Origin: Geobacter sp.
GTDB lineage: Bacteria; Desulfobacterota; Desulfuromonadia; Geobacterales; Pseudopelobacteraceae
Reading direction: 5' to 3'
NCBI GenBank assembly: GCA_025360785.1
Contig: JANYBN010000060.1
Span: 1 to 32,149 of the forward strand
DNA length: 32,149 nucleotides
Part shown: one piece after another, positions 4,243 to 21,788 of the stretch
Layout: each line of letters begins with the position of its first letter
Numbering within the stretch: position 1 is the first letter of the stretch
The notes under the pieces: generated by a model
The model's database searches: none
Told to the model about the DNA's origin: nothing
What the model saw: the letters and a program-made list of their open reading frames with translations, nothing else
Program-made: the position numbers and the translations under genes

Positions 4243-4665
4243 ATGTTAATGCCGAAACGGGTAAAACATAGAAAACAGATGAAGGGTCGTATGTCCGGTA
4301 AGCCCTGTAGAGGTATTGAACTCTCTTTCGGTGAATTCGGTCTGCAAGCAACAGAATGTGGCTGGCTTGATTCGCGTCAGATCGAAGCGGCTCGTATTGC
4401 TATGACTCGCTATATTAAGAGGGGTGGTAAGATATGGATTCGTATTTTTCCTGATAAACCACTTACTGCTAAACCGGCTGAGACCAGAATGGGTAAAGGA
4501 AAAGGTTCCCCTGATTCTTGGGTATGTGTTATAAAGCCTGGTATGGTATTGTACGAAATGGAAGGCGTGACTGAAGAAATTGCACGTGAAGCGTTCAGAC
4601 TGGCTGCCCATAAACTACCCATCTCTACAAAGTTTATTACCAGAGGGGATACCCATGAAGCCTAA
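4243..4665 (+). CDS. rplP: 50S ribosomal protein L16
   Basis: The 140-residue protein begins [16 protein letters not shown] and carries the conserved [23 protein letters not shown] region in pieces and [20 protein letters not shown]16 helps position A-site tRNA on the 50S subunit. GGAG lies ten bases before ATG 4243; the third codon is also ATG, so a two-codon shorter start is possible. The last 11 bases overlap rpmC. Confidence 0.97.
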
Positions 4666-4858
4666 TGACCTTAGAAAATCATCAGCTGAAGAGCTTCTTA
4701 AAAAACATAGTGAATCAACTCAGGAACTTTTTAATCTTAAATTTCAGCTTCATACCGGCAGACTTGAGAATACTTCCAAGCTGAAGAGCCTTCGTAAGAA
4801 TATTGCCAGAATTAATACAATTCTCACCGAAAGTAAGGCAGGGGGAGTATCAAAATGA
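4655..4858 (+). CDS. rpmC: 50S ribosomal protein L29
   Basis: The frame stays open far upstream inside rplP, but L29 is a short two-helix protein, and ATG 4655 gives the family start [17 protein letters not shown] and a normal length of 67 residues. AGAGGGG just upstream is the ribosome binding site. The conserved core [20 protein letters not shown] is intact. The gene overlaps the rplP end by 11 bases, and its stop overlaps the rpsQ start as ATGA, so three genes are translationally coupled. Confidence 0.95.
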
Positions 4859-5112
4859 GTGAGCGTGGTCACAGAAAAACACAAGTAGGTGTTGTTGTTA
4901 GCGATAAGATGGAAAAGACCGTTGTTGTAAAGGTCGACCGTCTTGTTAAGCACAGTGTCTACAGTAAGTATATTAAGCGTAGCGTAAAATATAAAGTTCA
5001 TGATGAGCTTAACAGTTCTAAAGTTGGTGATCGTGTTCAGATTATTGAATGCCGTCCTTTGAGTAAAGATAAACGCTGGAGCCTTAAGCAGATAATTGAA
5101 AGTATCTCTTAG
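4855..5112 (+). CDS. rpsQ: 30S ribosomal protein S17
   Basis: The 85-residue product has the S17 signature [18 protein letters not shown], and [22 protein letters not shown] matches the conserved OB-fold strands that bind 16S rRNA. The ATG overlaps the rpmC stop, with a GGGGGAG ribosome binding site inside the end of rpmC. It is the last gene of the S10 block; rplN follows after 18 bases with no terminator, so the spc genes are probably cotranscribed. Confidence 0.97.
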
Positions 5113-5130
5113 TATAGGGAGTAACATCTA

Positions 5131-5499
5131 ATGATTCAAATGCAGACAGTACTGGATGTAGCCGACAACTCTGGTGCAAAAAAGTTATTTTGCATTAAAG
5201 TACTTGGTGGCTCTAAAAGAAAATATGCAGGTGTTGGTGATATAATAGTTGCATCTGTTCGTGAAGCTATGCCGAATTCGAAGGTTAAAAAGGGCGATGT
5301 TGTCAAGGCAGTTGTTGTTAGAACTGCTAAAGCCTTGGGACGCCCTGACGGATCATATATCCGTTTTGATGACAATTCAGGGGTTGTTATCAATAATGCT
5401 AAGGAACCGGTCGGTACTCGTATCTTCGGTCCGGTAGCCAGAGAATTGCGTGCTAAAAAGTTCATGAAAATTATTTCTCTTGCACCGGAAGTACTATAA
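5131..5499 (+). CDS. rplN: 50S ribosomal protein L14
   Basis: L14 is a 122-residue protein at the subunit interface. The opening [19 protein letters not shown] is diagnostic, as are [20 protein letters not shown] and [13 protein letters not shown]. RsfS, the silencing factor, binds this protein in characterised bacteria. The ribosome binding site is AGGGAG. It is the first gene of the spc block. Confidence 0.98.
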
Positions 5500-5517
5500 A
5501 AATATCGGAGAATGATG

Positions 5518-5838
5518 ATGCAAGTCACGAAACCTCATGTTAACAAGGGCGATACTGTAATGGTTATTGCCGGTAAGGAAAAAAGCAAAACTGGCAAAAT
5601 TCTTCAATTACTGCCCAAAAAAAATGGTGTAATTGTTGAAGGTCTGAATCTCGTTAAGCGCCATGTTAAAGCTAAAGGGAATGAAGCTGGTGAAATTAAG
5701 GAGAAAGAAGCACGGATTCATATCTCCAATGTTATGCCATATTGCTCAAAGTGTTCCAAACCAGTAAGAACAAGTAAGAAACTTTTAGAAAATGGCGAAA
5801 AACAACGTGTTTGTGTTAAGTGTGGCACAACACTTTAG
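5518..5838 (+). CDS. rplX: 50S ribosomal protein L24, with zinc-ribbon type C-terminus
   Basis: L24 initiates 50S assembly. The KOW motif is visible in [20 protein letters not shown], followed by [12 protein letters not shown]. The C-terminal part has a Cys-x2-Cys pair (CSKC) and a second pair (CVKC), the zinc-ribbon-like form found in many bacteria but absent from E. coli L24. Three ATG codons occur in tandem (5512, 5515, 5518). I choose the last because GGAG at 5507-5510 is then seven bases away, giving [12 protein letters not shown] and 106 residues. Confidence 0.95.
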
Positions 5839-5862
5839 AAATACTTTGGAGGAATTTATCTA

Positions 5863-6402
5863 ATGTCTCGTTTAAAAGATATATATTCATCAGAAATCGT
5901 TCCCAAGCTGCTTAATGACTTCAGTTACAAGTCGTCTATGCAAGTACCTCAGATCAAGAAGATTGTTGTTAATATGGGTTTGGGTGAAGCGATCCAGAAT
6001 GTTAAAATTCTTGATTCTGCAACAACTGAGCTTGGTTTGATTACCGGACAAAAATCAGTGATCACCAAAGCTAAAAAATCAATTGCTACCTTTAAACTTC
6101 GTGAAGGTATGCCAATCGGTTGTATGGTTACCCTTCGTCGTGATCATATGTATGAATTTCTGGATCGTTTAATTAATGTATCACTTGCCAGGGTTCGCGA
6201 CTTTAAAGGTGTATCCGGTAAAGCATTTGACGGCAAGGGCAATTATACTCTTGGCATCAAGGATCAGCTTATCTTTCCTGAAATCAACTATGATAATGTT
6301 GATAAAATTAAAGGTATGAATATCACTATTGTAACAAGTGCTAAAACAGACGAAGAAGGTAAAGCACTTCTCAAGTACCTGGGCATGCCGTTCAGGAACT
6401 AA
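5863..6402 (+). CDS. rplE: 50S ribosomal protein L5
   Basis: The 179-residue protein matches L5, which binds 5S rRNA in the central protuberance and contacts S13 across the subunit bridge. Diagnostic stretches are [36 protein letters not shown] and [29 protein letters not shown] ribosome binding site precedes the ATG. rpsN follows after 17 bases. Confidence 0.98.
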
Positions 6403-6419
6403 GATATCTGGAGGATTCT

Positions 6420-6605
6420 GTGGCAAAAGTATCAATGATTATTAAGTCTCAACGTGCACCTAAGTTTAAGGTTCGGCAGCACAATCGTTGTCCGATCTGT
6501 GGTCGTCCAAAAGCGTTTTATCGCAAGTTCGAGATGTGCAGAATTTGTTTACGCAAATATGCCTCGTCCGGCCAGATTCCCGGAGTGATAAAATCCAGCT
6601 GGTAG
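6420..6605 (+). CDS. rpsN: 30S ribosomal protein S14, zinc-binding short form
   Basis: This 61-residue S14 is the short C+ (type Z) form: [20 protein letters not shown] provides two Cys-x2-Cys pairs that bind zinc, unlike the roughly 100-residue E. coli form. S14 lies in the 30S head and is needed late in assembly. The start is GTG at 6420, with CTGGAGGA upstream. The surrounding order rplE-rpsN-rpsH is standard. Confidence 0.97.
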
Positions 6606-14605: not shown

Positions 14606-15040
14606 ATGCGTCACAATAAAGCTGGCAGAAGACTGGGCAGGAAGACAAGCCATCGCGAAGCGATGTTTCGTAACATGGTAACTTCCCTTTTAGATCATGG
14701 TAAAATTACTACGACAGATGCTAAAGCAAAAGAAATACGTGTCGTAGCCGAACGGATGATTACTCTCGGTAAGCGTGGAGATCTTCATTCAATGCGTTTG
14801 GCTGCATCCGTGATTCGCGATAAATCAATAGTTTCAAAACTGTTTTCAACTATTGCACCTTGTTATAAGGAACGTCTTGGTGGTTATACCAGAATTATTA
14901 AACTTGGTATCCGTCAAGGTGATGCTGCACCTCTCTCTTTGATTGAGCTTGTTGAAGAGGAGATAAAATCCGGTAAGTCTACTTTGAACTCTTTAAAGTC
15001 AAAACCTGTTGCTTCTGACGCTGTGGGTGTAGCAGCTTAA
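14606..15040 (+). CDS. rplQ: 50S ribosomal protein L17
   Basis: L17 is recognised by [20 protein letters not shown] and the following [23 protein letters not shown]. At 144 residues it is longer than the E. coli protein because of a C-terminal extension (about residues 118-144). It is the last gene of the ribosomal operon and is followed by a strong terminator. Confidence 0.97.
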
Positions 15041-15066
15041 GTATCAATCTGGTCTATATGAATTAA

Positions 15067-15100
15067 CAGAAACGGCGTGGAGCTTTCCACGCCGTTTCTG
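15067..15100 (+). terminator. Intrinsic terminator of the ribosomal operon
   Basis: A perfect 14-bp stem (CAGAAACGGCGTGG at 15067-15080, pairing with 15087-15100) encloses a six-base loop AGCTTT and is followed by TTTC. It begins 27 bases after the rplQ stop and is the first convincing terminator in the window, ending the tuf-rplQ transcript. Confidence 0.88.
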
Positions 15101-15145
15101 TTTCATAGCGGTAATAAGAAAATATTTTAAATTGTTTTGCATATA

Positions 15146-15174
15146 TTGAACTAGCCAACTGTAAAATTTAAACT
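15146..15174 (+). promoter_or_regulatory. Possible selD promoter
   Basis: TTGAAC at 15146-15151 and TAAACT at 15169-15174 are separated by 17 bases in the AT-rich gap between the rplQ terminator and selD. Each box matches the sigma70 consensus in four of six positions, so this is tentative; some promoter is required here because the upstream operon is terminated. Confidence 0.35.
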
Positions 15175-15238
15175 CATTCGAATCAAGGGCATTAGGCAGC
15201 TTACTCCGTATACCGGAAAAATCTGGAGCCATCTTTTC

Positions 15239-16285
15239 ATGACAAACGAAATTATACGACTCACTCAGACAGTCAAGGGAGCAGGATGTGCCGCAAAACT
15301 TGCCCCCGGTGCTCTGGATAAAGCTCTCTGCGGACTAGATCTGCCTGTGGATGCAAATCTTCTTGTAGGTCTTGCTCAGGCGGATGACGCCGGCGTCTAT
15401 AAGGTCTCGGACGATATAGCTCTGGTTCAGACACTCGACTTCTTCCCCCCGATGGTCGATGATCCCTATAGTTTCGGTCAAATTGCCGCGGCCAATGCCT
15501 TGAGTGATATTTATGCAATGGGAGGAATTCCTAAGACAGCTATGAATATAGTCGCTTTTCCCTCAAAAACTCTGGATATCTCGATCCTGCGCACTATCAT
15601 AGAAGGGGGCTTGAGCAAGATGCGGGAAGCGGGGGTCGTACTGGTCGGCGGTCATACTGTGGAGGACAGTGAGCTTAAATATGGACTTTCAGTAACCGGC
15701 TACATCCACCCCGACCGTATCCTTACTAAAAAAAACCTGCAGACCGGTGACCGCTTGATTCTTACCAAGCCGGTGGGGACGGGGATTATCTCCACCGCCA
15801 TCAAGGCAGGGCTTGCCGGCCAAGCTTTAACGGATAGGGTTATACTGGCCATGTCGACGTTGAACCGGGAGGCTGCTTTGACCATGGAAGCTTTTCAGGT
15901 GCATGCCTGTACTGACATCACCGGCTTTGGTTTTTTGGGGCATCTGGCCGAAATGGTGGTGGATTCGGGGCGAGGGGTGCGCATCACGTCGGCAAATATC
16001 CCGATGTACCACGAGGCGCTGGAGTGGGCAGCTATGGGACTAATTCCGGCCGGTGCCTATAACAATAAAAACTTCAGAGGTTCATTTATCGATTTCGGCG
16101 CTGATGTGACCCAGAGAGTTCAGGATCTGCTTTTTGACCCGCAGACTTCCGGGGGGCTGCTGATTGCGGTTGCGGCTGCTGAGGCCGATAGGCTTGTATA
16201 TGCACTGAAAGCGAAGGGGATTGATTGCGCTGCCATTGTCGGTGAAGTGGTTGATGAACCGGTTGAAAGGATCATTGTAGAATAA
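15239..16285 (+). CDS. selD: Selenide, water dikinase (selenophosphate synthase)
   Basis: SelD makes selenophosphate from selenide and ATP for selenocysteine and selenouridine synthesis. The N-terminal flexible loop RLTQTVKGAGCAAK has catalytic C17 (encoded TGT, so not selenocysteine) and K20. AIR synthase-like ATP-binding motifs follow: the Asp in QTLDFFPP, ALSDIYAMGG, VLVGGHTVED and TDITGFGFLGH. The length of 348 is standard. GGAG at 15225-15228 lies ten bases before ATG. yedF follows after 18 bases, presumably in one operon. Confidence 0.97.
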   Translation: MTNEIIRLTQTVKGAGCAAKLAPGALDKALCGLDLPVDANLLVGLAQADDAGVYKVSDDIALVQTLDFFPPMVDDPYSFGQIAAANALSDIYAMGGIPKTAMNIVAFPSKTLDISILRTIIEGGLSKMREAGVVLVGGHTVEDSELKYGLSVTGYIHPDRILTKKNLQTGDRLILTKPVGTGIISTAIKAGLAGQALTDRVILAMSTLNREAALTMEAFQVHACTDITGFGFLGHLAEMVVDSGRGVRITSANIPMYHEALEWAAMGLIPAGAYNNKNFRGSFIDFGADVTQRVQDLLFDPQTSGGLLIAVAAAEADRLVYALKAKGIDCAAIVGEVVDEPVERIIVE

Positions 16286-16303
16286 AAGATATATGGAGGT
16301 CTT

Positions 16304-16918
16304 ATGCGAAAAGAACTTGATTGTCGTGGAATGGAGTGTCCCGCCCCGGTGTTACACGTCAGAAATGAACTTGAAAAGGAAACACCAGCCGCAATAACAG
16401 TACTTGTCGATAACGAGGCTGCCCGGCAGAATGTAGGCCGCTTCCTTGAACATATGAACTATAAAGTAAACTCCGAGATAATGGGTGGAGAGTTTCGGCT
16501 GGTCGGTACCAGAGCTGACGGGACAGTCTCTCTAGAAATGCCATCACCGGCACCATCAGCTAAAGTGTTGGAACCCGGTACCAAGAAGATCATGGTGTTT
16601 GTCACCTCAGATCATATGGGGCACGGTGACGATGGCTTAGGGGATATGCTGATGTTTAATTTTCTGAAAACCCTGAAAGAGATGGGGCCTAATCTCTGGC
16701 GCGTTGTGTTCGTCAACAGCGGTGTCAGCTTTACGGCGGAAGGCTCTGAGGCCGTGCCTGTTTTACAGGAGCTTGCCGGGGAAGGAGTTCAGGTCATGGC
16801 GTGCGGTGCCTGCCTGGCTTATTTCCATATCCTGGATAAAATGCAGGTTGGTGAAGTCACGAATATGCTGGACATCGTCACAGGCATGCAGCTTGCCGAG
16901 AGCGTAATTACGGTCTGA
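16304..16918 (+). CDS. yedF: YedF-type selenium metabolism protein (TusA-like + DsrE-like)
   Basis: Residues 1-70 are a TusA-like sulfurtransferase domain with the CPxP motif (ECPAPVL; candidate active Cys C12). Residues from about 90 form a DsrE/DsrF-like domain with the Cys pair in MACGACLAYF. This two-domain architecture is the YedF family known to sit beside selD. Its role is thought to be handling reduced selenium or sulfur for SelD, though this has not been shown for this protein. GGAGG lies just upstream of ATG. It converges on the minus-strand carbonic anhydrase-like gene with 12 bases between the stops. Confidence 0.92.
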   Translation: MRKELDCRGMECPAPVLHVRNELEKETPAAITVLVDNEAARQNVGRFLEHMNYKVNSEIMGGEFRLVGTRADGTVSLEMPSPAPSAKVLEPGTKKIMVFVTSDHMGHGDDGLGDMLMFNFLKTLKEMGPNLWRVVFVNSGVSFTAEGSEAVPVLQELAGEGVQVMACGACLAYFHILDKMQVGEVTNMLDIVTGMQLAESVITV

Positions 16919-16930
16919 AACTCCATGCCT

Positions 16931-18010
16931 TCAAAGAGTTTGTTTGGGCTCAGACAGCGCCTCTATCCTGCGCGAATTCCAATCAAGCACCGCAGTATGC
17001 CTGATCATTTTTTCGGACAGATAAGGAAACTCGCGCTCTATCACCTCGGCAGCAAAGTTGGAAAGGAAATGGGATTTCAAAACTGCGCGGGCCCGGTCAA
17101 CTCCAATTTCATCATACGGCACCGAAGCGAGCAGCAGGAACCCATCGTCGGGAATTCTCCCTTCCGCCATATTGCTTCCAATAATTGACGCTGCCTTACG
17201 GATCGGGTCGGCCAGGTCCGGACTGTACGGCCCGATGATCAGAGCCAGGTTGGGGGTATGAAGAAAGTCGAAGCCGCGCCCCAGGCAGATCATCCATTCG
17301 CTATGTTCGACGGTGAGTGAACGCTGTTCCTGCCGCAATCCTTTGATGTGGGACAGATTGCCGGCCAGCAGCGGCAGAAGATCGTTTCTCATTTCATTGG
17401 GCATGTCATTGAAACGTGCCGCCAGCTCTGCGGCAAGCCCTTCTATTGAAATGTCATTGGAAAGATTAAGGACTCGACCATCCGGACTGTGCAGCAGCAG
17501 GGCATCCTCATCGGTTTCGAAGCCGCAGATAAGAGGGTAAACGCTGTCATGAACAGCGCCGAAGATAGCTTCCATCTGATGCTGTATCTGACGCGTGTGG
17601 GCAATTGCCGCTTCTGTGTCGCAGTCGAAACCCGAACAGCCCCGATGGACATCACCTCGTGAAAAGTGGTAGGTAATCAGGATCAGGACCCTTCGGCCGC
17701 TTCTCACCATCCGTTGAACATGTTGGGCCAGCACCTCGCCAAGATGGGGCCAGCCCATATCAAACATCCCACCCAGGTTACGGAAAGGCTGAATAATGCC
17801 GGGAGGTGTATTGGTGGCAACCGGGATATTGATCCGGCCGTCCATGCATTTCAAGACGGCAATGGCGGTCGGATGCAACGCAAGATAACGCTCTCTGGCA
17901 AGAAAAGCCTCAGGGGAACAGAACTCGGCCGAGTATTTCATCGCTAGATCGAAAACCCAGTTTATGCGGGATGCTATAGGCTGCTCATGGATATTGCCGG
18001 TCGGATTCAT
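16931..18010 (-). CDS. Carbonic anhydrase-like protein with CsoSCA/beta-type zinc site
   Basis: This 359-residue soluble protein has the sequence elements of a beta-class carbonic anhydrase site. C55, D57 and R59 are in KCMDGRINIPV; H115 is in LITYHFSRGD, and H122 and C125 are in VHRGCSGF. The Cys-x-Asp-x-Arg followed by YHFS and a downstream His-x2-Cys recalls the carboxysomal enzyme CsoSCA, in which Cys, His and Cys bind zinc and Asp-Arg form the dyad. Length is shorter than CsoSCA, and no carboxysome genes are nearby. AAGGAGAGG precedes the ATG. It lies 19 bases after the HyfB-like gene in the same operon. Activity on CO2 is inference; the zinc-site reading is what the sequence shows. Confidence 0.75.
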   Translation of the reverse strand: MNPTGNIHEQPIASRINWVFDLAMKYSAEFCSPEAFLARERYLALHPTAIAVLKCMDGRINIPVATNTPPGIIQPFRNLGGMFDMGWPHLGEVLAQHVQRMVRSGRRVLILITYHFSRGDVHRGCSGFDCDTEAAIAHTRQIQHQMEAIFGAVHDSVYPLICGFETDEDALLLHSPDGRVLNLSNDISIEGLAAELAARFNDMPNEMRNDLLPLLAGNLSHIKGLRQEQRSLTVEHSEWMICLGRGFDFLHTPNLALIIGPYSPDLADPIRKAASIIGSNMAEGRIPDDGFLLLASVPYDEIGVDRARAVLKSHFLSNFAAEVIEREFPYLSEKMIRHTAVLDWNSRRIEALSEPKQTL

Positions 18011-18029
18011 GGCGCCTCTCCTTGGTAAG

Positions 18030-20039
18030 TTAGAAATAGCTGGCTGCCAGTAAGACGATGAGGGTTATGAGAGAATAGAGAACATACTGCTGTAGAATAC
18101 CGCTCTGCAACCTTCTTACCCCGGCAAAACGTTGATAAAGCCGTATCAGCATCGGAATATACACCAACTCCAGTACAACTTCCGGAACATGACTGAAATA
18201 ACGGACATGACCGGGGAAAAGTCCTGCAATCCTCTTCGGCCTGTGGTTTTGCGTCTTAAGTACAAACTCTGACAATGACGTCAGCATTTCGGCGAATGAT
18301 GAGGCGCTGTACTGCATCCGTGGCGCAGGACGTTGATAGCCGCACCCCCAGGTAACGGTTTCGCTGCAGCTTTTTTCCGCCACATGTCGGCGATACCAGA
18401 CGACAAGTACAGCGATCATGGCAAGCAGCACCAATCCGGAAAGAGTTATCATCATTACAGGCGCCAGCTCCTGCAGTGGCAGGCCTGCGGTTCTTGTTAA
18501 CTGCGGGAGAACTGTCAGGCTGGTGCTCTGCAAAGAGGGCACTACCACTCCTGGAGCCAGGCCGATGGCCATGCAGACCACCCCGAGCATCAGCATCGGC
18601 AGCAGCATTTGCCAGCCGGCTTCATGACGTGCCACAGGCGCCTCGGTACGGGGAACACCCAAAAACACGATGCCATACACCTTGACAAAGCAGGCTACCG
18701 CCAACCCGCCGACCAGAGCCAGCGCAGGAGCCGCGAGGGCCACGGCTACAGCCGCGCCGCCCTCGCCTTGAATCCCCTGGAAAAAGCCCAGGTAGATCAG
18801 CAGTTCGCTGACAAAACCGTTGAGCGGCGGCAGCCCACAGATGGCTACAGAACCGATTCCGAAAAGCAGAGCGGTATACGGGAGATGCCGGGCCGCGCCC
18901 CCCATCAGATCAATTTCGCGGGTGCCGGTGGCATGGATAACCGAGCCGGCTCCCAGAAAGAGCAGCGATTTGAAGAGCGCATGGTTGAGGACATGAAGCA
19001 GCGCCCCGCTCATGCCGAGCAGCATCATGGCCGGAGAGCCAACCGTCTGTCCGATCAGTGCCACCCCGATCCCCATGAAGATAATGCCGATGTTCTCGAT
19101 GCTGTGATATGCCAGCAGCCGTTTCAGATCATGTTGTCCGATCGCAAAGACGACGCCAATCACTCCGGAAATGACTCCGAGGGCCAGCACACAGCAACCC
19201 CACCAGAGCGGTATGTCGTGGAAAAATGAGAACGTCCGTATCAGTCCGTACACCCCGACCTTGAGAATCACCCCCGACATGGCTGCTGAAACATGACTGG
19301 GTGCGTAGGCGTGGGCGGATGGGAGCCAAATATGGAGCGGCATGATGCCGGCCTTCAGACCGAAGGCAAACAGGGCGGTCATAAATATCGCTGTGGACAC
19401 CCCGGAAGCGGCAGCCATAGAAGCGGGGCCTGGAAACAGCCAGGAACCGGTCAGCAGATTCAAGAGAGGAAAGAGAGCAAACAGGCCGAGCGTCCCGGTG
19501 TGGGTAGTAATCATATACAGCATGCCTGATTCTCTGACCTCAGGTTTTTCGTCTTCAGTCGAGACCAGGAAATAGGCTGACAGCGCCATGATCTCCCAGG
19601 CAAACATGAAACTGATACCGTCGCGGGCCAGTACAACTCCGCTCATGCTGGCTGTCATCAGGCCGAAAAAGAAGGTCATCTTGCGAACGTTGGTTGGATG
19701 GTGATCGGCATGCCAGTAGGAACGGGAATACAGCGCGGCGCAGCCGGGGATCAGAAAAATGGGGAGCAAAAACCAGGCCGAGAGCGGATCTATGCCGATC
19801 TCAGCCGGGCCAAAGGGGAGCGTCCAGGCCAGTTCTAACAGGTCGGAACGCCCGGATAAAAGGGTCTGTATCGAGCCGGTCAGCCCGATGCACGAAGCGG
19901 CGAGCATCAAGACTATTGACAACAACTGGGCACGCGCAGAACTCTGCAGCCGGGAAAACAACATTGGACCACCGGAAATGGCGGCCAGCAGCGTGGCACT
20001 GAAAATCAGGGTACTCTGGGAGAACAGCTCCTGTGCCAT
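18030..20039 (-). CDS. HyfB/HycC-type proton-translocating membrane subunit, orphan
   Basis: The 669-residue protein has about 15 hydrophobic segments and belongs to the NuoL/MrpA antiporter-like superfamily, closest to HyfB (about 670 residues). The proton-path residues are present: E149 in FMFAWEIMALSAYFLV, K229 in FGLKAGIMPLHIWLP, K260, K306 with H312 in DLKRLLAYHSIENIG, and K357 in LNHALFKSLLFLGAGSV. The HyfB-specific C-terminal TWGCGYQRPAPRMQYSASSF is intact. No other hydrogenase-4 or complex I genes are adjacent, so it is an orphan subunit with a carbonic anhydrase-like partner. GGAGG stands ten bases before ATG. Confidence 0.9.
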   Translation of the reverse strand: MAQELFSQSTLIFSATLLAAISGGPMLFSRLQSSARAQLLSIVLMLAASCIGLTGSIQTLLSGRSDLLELAWTLPFGPAEIGIDPLSAWFLLPIFLIPGCAALYSRSYWHADHHPTNVRKMTFFFGLMTASMSGVVLARDGISFMFAWEIMALSAYFLVSTEDEKPEVRESGMLYMITTHTGTLGLFALFPLLNLLTGSWLFPGPASMAAASGVSTAIFMTALFAFGLKAGIMPLHIWLPSAHAYAPSHVSAAMSGVILKVGVYGLIRTFSFFHDIPLWWGCCVLALGVISGVIGVVFAIGQHDLKRLLAYHSIENIGIIFMGIGVALIGQTVGSPAMMLLGMSGALLHVLNHALFKSLLFLGAGSVIHATGTREIDLMGGAARHLPYTALLFGIGSVAICGLPPLNGFVSELLIYLGFFQGIQGEGGAAVAVALAAPALALVGGLAVACFVKVYGIVFLGVPRTEAPVARHEAGWQMLLPMLMLGVVCMAIGLAPGVVVPSLQSTSLTVLPQLTRTAGLPLQELAPVMMITLSGLVLLAMIAVLVVWYRRHVAEKSCSETVTWGCGYQRPAPRMQYSASSFAEMLTSLSEFVLKTQNHRPKRIAGLFPGHVRYFSHVPEVVLELVYIPMLIRLYQRFAGVRRLQSGILQQYVLYSLITLIVLLAASYF

Positions 20040-20069
20040 GATGCGGTTACCTCCTCTCCCTACAGCCTC

Positions 20070-20747
20070 TTACTTCTTGATAATAGATTCCTCCAGCGCG
20101 CGAATAGCAGTCATGATTTCGGCTTCGCTGCCGGTACGGTGGAGCAGTTCCTGAAAGGGTTGATCATGCAGCAGAAAAGCGAGTTTTGCCAGCAGGTGCA
20201 GGTGCTCCTTGACATTGGGGGTCACCAGGGTGAAAAGTATAGTGACCGGTTGGCCGTCAACGGCATCAAAGTCGATAGGGTTTTTAAGAAAGCAGAGACT
20301 GATAGCCGACTCCCCTGCCTGCCCTACAATCGGATTGCGAACATGCGGAATCGCAATGCCGTTCCCGAGGGCGGTGGAGCCCAACGCTTCACGCGCCAGA
20401 AGGGTCTGCAGCAGGAATTCCGGATCAAGGCCGGTGGGCAGGTGAAGCCGGGAAACAACCTCTCGCAACGCGGTTTCCGGAGTGTCGCCGAACAGATCGT
20501 AAAAGATGCCTCCCGTCAGAAGCGCCTCCGTAACAGTCGCCAGGTGGCTCGTTTCATTATGGAGCACAAAAATATCCGGAGGAATAGTTATACCCTGATT
20601 AGTGGCCCATTCGAGCAGATCAACCCGGTTGATGCGATACCGGTCATCATGTTTATGCGCCGGAAGCCCCTTGCTTTTAATCCAGCTTAACACCGTTTTT
20701 TCATCAACGCCGATTGCGGCGGCAAGATCGGTAACTTTTAAAAACAT
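20070..20747 (-). CDS. EIIA(Ntr)-like protein with N-terminal DNA-binding domain
   Basis: Residues 1-50 are a MerR/excisionase-type helix-turn-helix (VTDLAAAIGVDEKTVLSWIK, then HKHDDRYRINRVDLLEWA). Residues about 68-220 are a PTS EIIA type 2 domain with the phosphorylatable His H135 in GIAIPHVRNPI. Such fusions are presumably regulators whose phosphorylation is set by a PTS(Ntr) chain. It is the first gene of the three-gene minus-strand operon, 30 bases before the HyfB-like gene, which suggests that it controls, or reports to, this membrane module. Its DNA target is unknown; CGGAGAG is the ribosome binding site. Confidence 0.88.
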   Translation of the reverse strand: MFLKVTDLAAAIGVDEKTVLSWIKSKGLPAHKHDDRYRINRVDLLEWATNQGITIPPDIFVLHNETSHLATVTEALLTGGIFYDLFGDTPETALREVVSRLHLPTGLDPEFLLQTLLAREALGSTALGNGIAIPHVRNPIVGQAGESAISLCFLKNPIDFDAVDGQPVTILFTLVTPNVKEHLHLLAKLAFLLHDQPFQELLHRTGSEAEIMTAIRALEESIIKK

Positions 20748-20844: not shown

Positions 20845-20894
20845 TCGCATTTTCCTGAGTGTACAGACGCTAAATGAGCCCACAAGGCGGCATT

Positions 20895-21788
20895 ATGGAC
20901 AAAGAACTGGCATCACAACTCAAACAGGTACTCACATCACTGCAGCTGCTGCTGCCTAAGCCGGTGGCCACAATCGATTGGGCGGCCTGCCACGCTGCCA
21001 ACTGGCGGCGACACTCCTTCAGCGGCTATCTGGAACCGGTCGAAAGCATCGAGCAGATCAGCCTGGACGATCTGCTCGGCATCGAAGAGCAGAAACAGAC
21101 TGTTGAAGAAAATACCCTCCAGTTTCTGGCCGGGTATCCCGCCAACAATACACTGCTCTGGGGCACACGCGGCACCGGCAAGTCCTCCCTGATACGGGCG
21201 ATGCTCAACAATTATGCTTCCCGGGGACTGCGGATTGTCCAGGTTGACAAAAACGATCTGATCAATCTGCCGGACATCGTGGACAGCATCAAACGGTTGC
21301 CGTACCGTTTTATTATCTTCTCCGACGATGTCTCCTTCGAGGTGGGCGAATCAAGCTACAAAATGCTGAAAAGCGCCCTGGACGGAGCTGTCTATGCGCC
21401 GCCGGACAACGTCCTGATCTATGTTACCTCAAACCGCCGCCACCTGCTCCCCGAATTTGAAACAGACAACCGCGGCGCCATGCTGATCAACAACGAGATG
21501 CACCACGGCGAGGCGATTGAGGAAAAGATCTCGCTCTCCGGCCGCTTCGGGCTATGGGTCGGGTTTCATCCTTTCAACCAGGATCAATATGTCAGCGTCA
21601 CCCGGCAATGGGTCGGTAAACTCTTTGCCAGGCAGGGATCTCCACTCGTCTGGAACGACGAAGTGCGCGCTGCGGCAATCCAGTGGGGGTACGATAAGGG
21701 TGACAACAGCGGCCGGATCGCCTACCAGTTCGCCTGCCGCTGGGTCGGCATACAGATGCTGAAGCATAAAAAGGCGGACACGCCGTGA
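20895..21788 (+). CDS. DUF815-family P-loop ATPase
   Basis: The product is an AAA+-like ATPase of the uncharacterised DUF815 family. With the ATG at 20895, Walker A GTRGTGKSS lies at residues 90-98, Walker B-like RFIIFSDD at 139-146, and a sensor-like Asn/Arg stretch occurs in YVTSNRRHLLPE. I prefer ATG 20895 (297 residues) because AAGGCGG lies just before it; ATG 20874 has no ribosome binding site. It overlaps mutT as GTGA. The family's role is not known; related ATPases act in remodelling of proteins or nucleic acids. Confidence 0.88.
   Translation: MDKELASQLKQVLTSLQLLLPKPVATIDWAACHAANWRRHSFSGYLEPVESIEQISLDDLLGIEEQKQTVEENTLQFLAGYPANNTLLWGTRGTGKSSLIRAMLNNYASRGLRIVQVDKNDLINLPDIVDSIKRLPYRFIIFSDDVSFEVGESSYKMLKSALDGAVYAPPDNVLIYVTSNRRHLLPEFETDNRGAMLINNEMHHGEAIEEKISLSGRFGLWVGFHPFNQDQYVSVTRQWVGKLFARQGSPLVWNDEVRAAAIQWGYDKGDNSGRIAYQFACRWVGIQMLKHKKADTP

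Follow-up and report, generated by a model that had tools for sequence, protein, structure and literature searches.

Two described systems lie close to the locus reported here, a carbonic anhydrase family and a membrane complex of Geobacter. The carboxysomal enzyme CsoSCA is placed among the beta-carbonic anhydrases, as a deeply divergent form, in the relevant part of PMC10880623, and a passage of PMC9164163 calls its relative CsoSCA2 widespread but unstudied. The role of the Ehr complex is called uninvestigated in a section of PMC7894505, where every Ehr subunit of G. sulfurreducens is described as reaching higher levels with formate than under conditions that contain hydrogen; a passage of PMC13194489 calls the Ehr of G. 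sulfurreducens KN400 non-functional, for want of a nickel-iron centre. We analysed a stretch of 32,149 nucleotides from Geobacter sp. (assembly GCA_025360785.1, contig JANYBN010000060.1, positions 1 to 32,149; the window), in which three minus-strand open reading frames follow one another in the order EIIA-type regulator, HyfB-like membrane subunit (HyfB1) and carbonic anhydrase (CA), with gaps of 30 and 19 bases. A preliminary description, made from the DNA alone, had reported these reading frames at the same places and spacings, and had read them as a possible new energy-coupled module for inorganic-carbon uptake or CO2 hydration. The best explanation is that they are the front of an Ehr (Ech-hydrogenase-related) operon, with a CsoSCA2-type CA placed directly behind EhrA-1 and serving an Ehr-linked CO2 balance; as a whole, we give this explanation about an even chance of being right.

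A CsoSCA2-type carbonic anhydrase

The features of the locus are as follows.

20070..20747, minus strand: EIIA-type regulator with N-terminal HTH_17, gene 1 of the Ehr operon (225 aa; Pfam PTS_EIIA_2 95 bits, HTH_17 45 bits)
18030..20039, minus strand: HyfB1, the EhrA-1-type NuoL/HyfB-like membrane subunit (669 aa; PF00361, Proton_antipo_M, 171 bits)
18011..18029, minus strand: junction of 19 bases between HyfB1 and CA, with the ribosome-binding-like sequence AAGGAGAGG (read from the sequence)
16931..18010, minus strand: CsoSCA2-type carbonic anhydrase, catalytic part and a C-terminal part resembling the second CsoSCA domain (359 aa; PF20686)
17834..17848, minus strand: CMDGR motif, Cys55-x-Asp57-x-Arg59, predicted zinc ligand and Asp/Arg pair (read from the sequence; conserved 36/36)
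17636..17668, minus strand: HFSRGDVHRGC, His115...Cys125, predicted remaining zinc ligands (aligned with the HFS...GC stretch of 2fgy; conserved 36/36)
20874..21788, plus strand: DUF815 ATPase gene, divergent and outside the operon (PF05673 333 bits)

The 359-aa protein matched Pfam CsoSCA_cat (PF20686) with 29.9 bits against a cut-off of 21.5, and a profile comparison matched it to CsoSCA in the PDB (2fgy) with an E value of 1.1e-7. The CsoSCA alignment covered the catalytic part and, again, the C-terminal part. When its predicted model was compared with solved structures, three CsoSCA structures matched with VIA Z scores of 14.8, 14.2 and 13.2 over 317-320 of the 359 residues (the highest, 8thm, over 320 residues), and the next row was the beta-carbonic anhydrase 1ddz with a Z score of 8.7; confidence in the model was low (mean pLDDT 53, pTM 0.44) and its alignment shallow (13 rows). 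Cys55, Asp57, Arg59, His115 and Cys125 were identical in all 36 sequences compared, the window's included, and we take them to have the zinc-ligand and Asp/Arg roles that they have in CsoSCA. The CsoSCA-like zinc site proposed in the preliminary description was thus borne out by family and ligands, and the predicted fold, within its low confidence, agrees with a zinc carbonic anhydrase. The protein is far shorter than the carboxysomal enzymes that it matched. A carboxysome remnant was considered and rejected, because the window's genome yielded no RuBisCO large chain and the carboxysomal equivalog TIGR02701 scored 38 bits, far under its cut-off of 241. The protein fits the published non-carboxysomal CsoSCA2 and, judged from its sequence, is predicted to be active in the cytoplasm as a zinc carbonic anhydrase.

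The front of an order-wide Ehr operon

The EIIA-HyfB1 pair is the front of an Ehr operon found across the order, to which the CA gene has been added. Among 141 genomes of the order, 104 gave a match to HyfB1 (E<=1e-190) and 100 a match to EIIA (E<=1e-20); the HyfB1 threshold may mix EhrA-1 and EhrA-2 in distant genera (in L115, for example, the gene behind EIIA scored as HyfB2). In relatives, the CA gene is followed by a second HyfB gene (HyfB2) and then by HyfC-, HyfE-, HyfF-, HyfG- and HyfI-like genes, HyfE being named from its position and the published Ehr gene list, as it had no Pfam match. EhrD is likewise a subunit of the Ehr complex. The best NCBIfam match of HyfB1 was hydrogenase-4 subunit B (577 bits, under the 667 cut-off) and its best solved relative was subunit 3 of formate hydrogenlyase (7z0s_C); Mrp antiporter subunits also matched, with lower scores. 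The HyfG-like protein matched NuoD and had no CxxC, the nickel-binding motif; this motif was missing from the large subunit, EhrL, of both G105 and the window's genome; an identification as a hydrogenase was rejected on the EhrL result. The translation of the EIIA gene contains the motif 'IAIPHVR', whose His presumably has a phosphorylation-type role. The preliminary description had thus named the regulator and the HyfB-type neighbour correctly. Its word 'orphan' did not hold for HyfB1, an EhrA-1-type subunit whose operon is found throughout the order, yet the other Ehr genes lie on another contig here: HyfB2, C, E, F and G were found on C201 (L120). The search for EhrS gave no ortholog in the window's genome, where the best match was 44% identical and inside the Nuo operon; the assembly has 229 contigs and a gap is possible.

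The position of the enzyme was constant. Between the stop of HyfB1 and the start of CA lay 19-81 bases in all 14 genomes measured, and in a fifteenth (G086) the CA gene likewise came directly after HyfB1; pairing was therefore found in 15/15 carriers of the order, with strand and place unchanged and no insertion between the two genes in any of the 15. HyfB2 lay downstream on the same strand in 12 of the 15, 119 to about 4,800 bases from CA; these 12 include G086 and G111 (HyfB2 start at contig end). No HyfB2 was seen after CA in G102 (about 10 kb downstream covered) or in G112 (2.8 kb covered), and the third carrier in which it was not linked is the window's own genome. In broken operons HyfB1 and the enzyme remain together. 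Of the proposed new module, the CA/HyfB pairing therefore stood and its independence did not, the module being an Ehr operon front with a CA gene added. Median pairwise ratios of nonsynonymous to synonymous substitution (dN/dS) were 0.061 for CA and 0.113 for HyfB1 (13 of 15 carriers) and 0.090 for EIIA (12 carriers), values that are partly saturated (median dS 1.3-1.5) and that speak against decay of the three genes.

Other genes were seen along the operon. A second Ehr-like operon stood behind HyfB1 in L107, L111, L124, L129, L131 and L133, with a HyfB about 39% identical; its large subunit had no CxxC in the three that were read (L107, L111, L124). Inside this second operon, L107 carries a transporter of the SulP type (4309-6549), which has a STAS and a cNMP-binding domain. 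Several genomes of the window's genus have a PRK08289-type GAPDH (NCBIfam) and a GGDEF protein after the Ehr genes, for example L035 at 14704-16902.

Distribution of CsoSCA2

CsoSCA2 was present in 15/141 genomes of the order, namely 13 of the window's genus, its own included, and 2 of another family; the other copies in the order were 84-88% identical to the window's. One of these carriers, G086, has a partial HyfB1 at a contig edge and stands outside the 104. A search with profile A2 found CsoSCA2 in 35/277 genomes of the class, the 15 of the order and 20 outside it. The PF20686 family search was insensitive (3/395 genomes of the phylum) and missed G314, G401 and G513, which profile A2 found. 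Outside the order the protein was 55-69% identical and the catalytic residues were the same. No match was found on plasmids and no relative on viral contigs. A relaxed search for a decayed CA in 15 stretches without one found none, the best E value (2e-4) falling within an EhrL gene; in L108 and L109 a weak match fell on the beta-carbonic anhydrase. A gene for the RuBisCO large chain (RuBisCO_large) was found in 1/141 genomes of the order (G096:C16:101704-102465).

Two carbonic anhydrase families stand in tandem in three genomes that share a genus outside the order, a classic beta-CA gene lying directly upstream of CsoSCA2 (L257 8530-10357, L258 8331-10133, L259 8174-9937; stretches oriented to put CsoSCA2 on the plus strand).

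Beta-carbonic anhydrases in the same slot

G103 and G104 had no CsoSCA2; between HyfB1 and HyfB2 they carried a classic beta-CA (Pro_CA, PF00484; 174 bits in G103), whose likely ATG lay 25 bases behind the HyfB1 stop in both. G044, of a distant genus, had another beta-CA 164 bases or more before HyfB2, and in G024 and G026 a beta-CA followed the HyfI gene. The beta-CAs that replace CsoSCA2 matched ordinary carbonate dehydratase families. Because CsoSCA is itself a divergent beta-CA, CsoSCA2 and Pro_CA are different families of one broad class and not unrelated proteins. In a HyfB1 tree (61 rows, quick method), one clade of 20 rows with support 98 held 12 CsoSCA2 carriers, G103 and G104, and 6 genomes without either enzyme, one of which (G097) is cut off by a contig end. 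When the labels of the CsoSCA2 and Pro_CA rows alone were shuffled in this tree, 70 of 500 shuffles scored as low.

With five queries, Pro_CA was found in 5/100 stretches (L107-L206), always on the HyfB1 strand; G124 and G131, where it lies upstream, divergent from HyfB1 and 6-7 kb away, were left out of the count. From the 288 Pro_CA matches in the 141 genomes, 0.034 same-strand matches were expected in 42 slots and 3 were seen, from 2 lineages (P about 6e-4 by lineage); within 12 kb downstream in 104 stretches, 0.29 were expected and 5 seen, from 3 lineages (P about 3e-3 by lineage). These estimates assume uniform placement in a genome of 3.75 Mb and were sought after the first two cases, so that they serve as a guide only. 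The repeated capture of different carbonic anhydrases by the Ehr operon supports some coupling to CO2/bicarbonate.

Evaluation of the explanations

The enzyme family, the conserved catalytic residues, the identity of the operon, the position of the gene and the separate use of a beta-CA in the same slot were all established by computation. The balance of probability also favours a functional link between carbonic anhydrase activity and the Ehr operon. In the explanation that we prefer, a zinc carbonic anhydrase would be made together with EhrA-1 under a regulator with EIIA and helix-turn-helix parts. Wherever metabolism linked to Ehr produces or consumes CO2, as for example during growth on formate, the anhydrase would keep CO2, bicarbonate and protons equilibrated. 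Its coupling to Ehr would be functional and probably local, and a physical pump complex would be unnecessary. The co-location, the existence of free-standing relatives and the swapping of enzyme families would all be explained by a soluble enzyme that keeps CO2 and bicarbonate balanced where Ehr acts.

Several results weigh against this explanation. Most genomes of the order with HyfB1 had no carbonic anhydrase that we found in the Ehr operon, and 90 had HyfB1 without CsoSCA2 (104 less 14 carriers). The 15 linked CsoSCA2 formed one clade (support 99), indicating one arrival. The preliminary description had asked for conserved synteny, and the pair that held in all 15 carriers of the order failed outside it: neither HyfB, EIIA nor other core Ehr genes stood beside CsoSCA2 in any of 21 stretches (20 of the class and G438), which spanned 3 to 19.5 kb and in L242 and L247 reached less than 400 bases upstream of CA. 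The stretch of G360 gave only a distant GGDEF-domain match, and G360 and G438 have HyfB relatives elsewhere in the genome. CsoSCA2 thus does not depend on a HyfB neighbour. The slot between HyfB1 and HyfB2 also takes unrelated genes, which look like toxin-antitoxin, STAND and OLD-type genes (names given by reading the sequences, with no family search). Carriers did not have significantly fewer other beta-CAs within the genus (p 0.15), nor did they significantly more often lack a strong other beta-CA across the order (p 0.11). The set of Ehr subunits found in the window's genome was incomplete, and the rest of Ehr is unlinked to the window.

The same slot could have collected the enzyme by hitch-hiking. 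The site between ehrA-1 and ehrA-2 would take genes easily, and a housekeeping anhydrase would have landed there once and would use the promoter. The second Ehr-like operon and the toxin-antitoxin-, STAND- and OLD-type-looking genes of other genomes fit such a history, as does the single clade of the linked enzyme. The enzyme and the operon may also have spread together: HyfB1 of G013 and G016, the carriers from the other family, grouped with the window's genus and its sister genus and not with their genus-mate G015, which suggests that operon and enzyme moved as one. However, separate arrivals of another carbonic anhydrase family in the slot (G103/G104; G044) are unlikely by chance, and CA always lies on the same strand in the same place. 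We regard hitch-hiking as unlikely.

A pump stands at about the same low level of probability. EhrA-1 and the anhydrase would then form an energy-coupled CO2-hydration pump. The CA would dock to the HyfB-like subunit from the cytoplasmic side, and CO2 would be driven one way to bicarbonate, either by proton flow or by the redox reaction of Ehr, as in DabAB or the cyanobacterial NDH-1 CO2-uptake complex. It is HyfB1, and not the other Ehr genes, with which the enzyme is closely paired; the pairing persists even where those other genes lie apart, as they do in the window's genome; and carbonic anhydrases of different families were recruited repeatedly. All of this would suit a pump. By contrast, CsoSCA2 with the same conserved residues occurs with no HyfB beside it, and the fact that an ordinary beta-CA can replace it speaks against a docking surface of a specific kind. 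DabA was absent from all 141 genomes, and RuBisCO in a single genome leaves no evident need for bicarbonate accumulation. Of the inorganic-carbon uptake that the preliminary description had proposed, some coupling to CO2/bicarbonate is supported by the repeated capture of carbonic anhydrases; uptake itself is a hypothesis. The pH or sodium system that it had offered as an equal alternative seems to us very improbable. HyfB1 would be a cation/proton antiporter, and the anhydrase would supply protons and bicarbonate for internal pH; the lower-scoring Mrp matches of HyfB1 favour this and the EIIA regulator is compatible with global control, but no Mrp partner genes were met among the scanned neighbours, the best HyfB1 relatives are hydrogenase-4 and formate hydrogenlyase subunits, and no result here speaks for sodium.

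Neighbouring genes and upstream region

Ribosome-binding-like sequences stand upstream of both the HyfB1 and the CA gene in the window. The preliminary description had credited the operon with a good promoter. The candidate was a single 9-of-12 match upstream of the EIIA gene, and the region holds 3 such sites against 2.6 expected from shuffles, so that the promoter was not above chance. The divergent DUF815 ATPase gene occupies the same upstream spot in several relatives. Convergent with the CA gene lie an AIR synthase-related gene and TusA/DsrE genes (window 15239-16918); we take the first to be SelD-like.

Comparison with known systems

The Geobacter Ehr complex described in parts of PMC7894505, PMC8691401 and PMC13194489 shares with this operon the HyfB/NuoL-like subunits EhrA-1 and EhrA-2, the other membrane subunits, a large subunit with no nickel site and a small subunit. 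However, the published subunit lists, in those same parts, include no carbonic anhydrase. Between the two HyfB genes, the genomes of the order analysed here carried CsoSCA2 in 15/141 and a beta-CA in 3, unlike the published Ehr. The shared operon and the exchange of CA families lead to the hypothesis that Ehr acts where the balance of CO2 and bicarbonate matters.

The window's enzyme resembles the CsoSCA2 described in passages of PMC9164163: both are compact and consist of a catalytic domain and a second one after a short N-terminal part, with the active-site residues kept and no carboxysome genes. The window's enzyme differs in the place of its gene, which follows that of a HyfB-like subunit in an Ehr operon; Geobacter, NuoL and hydrogenase do not occur in the main text of PMC9164163. 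CsoSCA2 may therefore serve outside carboxysomes beside a membrane complex. Among the open-licence papers searched we found none that connects CsoSCA, or any carbonic anhydrase, with Ehr or HyfB; PMC6147122 mentions carbonic anhydrase and ehr in separate passages, with no link drawn in them. CsoSCA2 and Ehr are each known, and their combination appears to be new.

Two energy-coupled systems invite comparison. The cyanobacterial NDH-1MS CO2-uptake complex is complex-I-like, has extra NuoL-like subunits and is tied to CO2 hydration, a make-up that Ehr with its anhydrase may resemble. The DabA/DabB system, as described in part of PMC12918739, similarly pairs a membrane protein driven by the proton motive force with a carbonic-anhydrase-like protein. 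Here, however, the soluble protein belongs to the CsoSCA family and the membrane partner is HyfB-like. A DAB system was rejected for this locus, with DabA (PF10070) in 0/141 genomes of the order and matched in 2 of 14 control genomes. We think it rather unlikely that Ehr, a relative of complex I and of hydrogenases, is itself a CO2-hydration machine in these bacteria. In such a machine EhrA-1 and a CA (CsoSCA2 or beta) would make up a pump, evolved independently of DAB and NDH-1MS, that spends proton or redox energy on keeping bicarbonate or CO2 away from equilibrium. If the pump reading were true, these two systems would be joined by another one in which CO2 hydration is coupled to energy, of separate origin.

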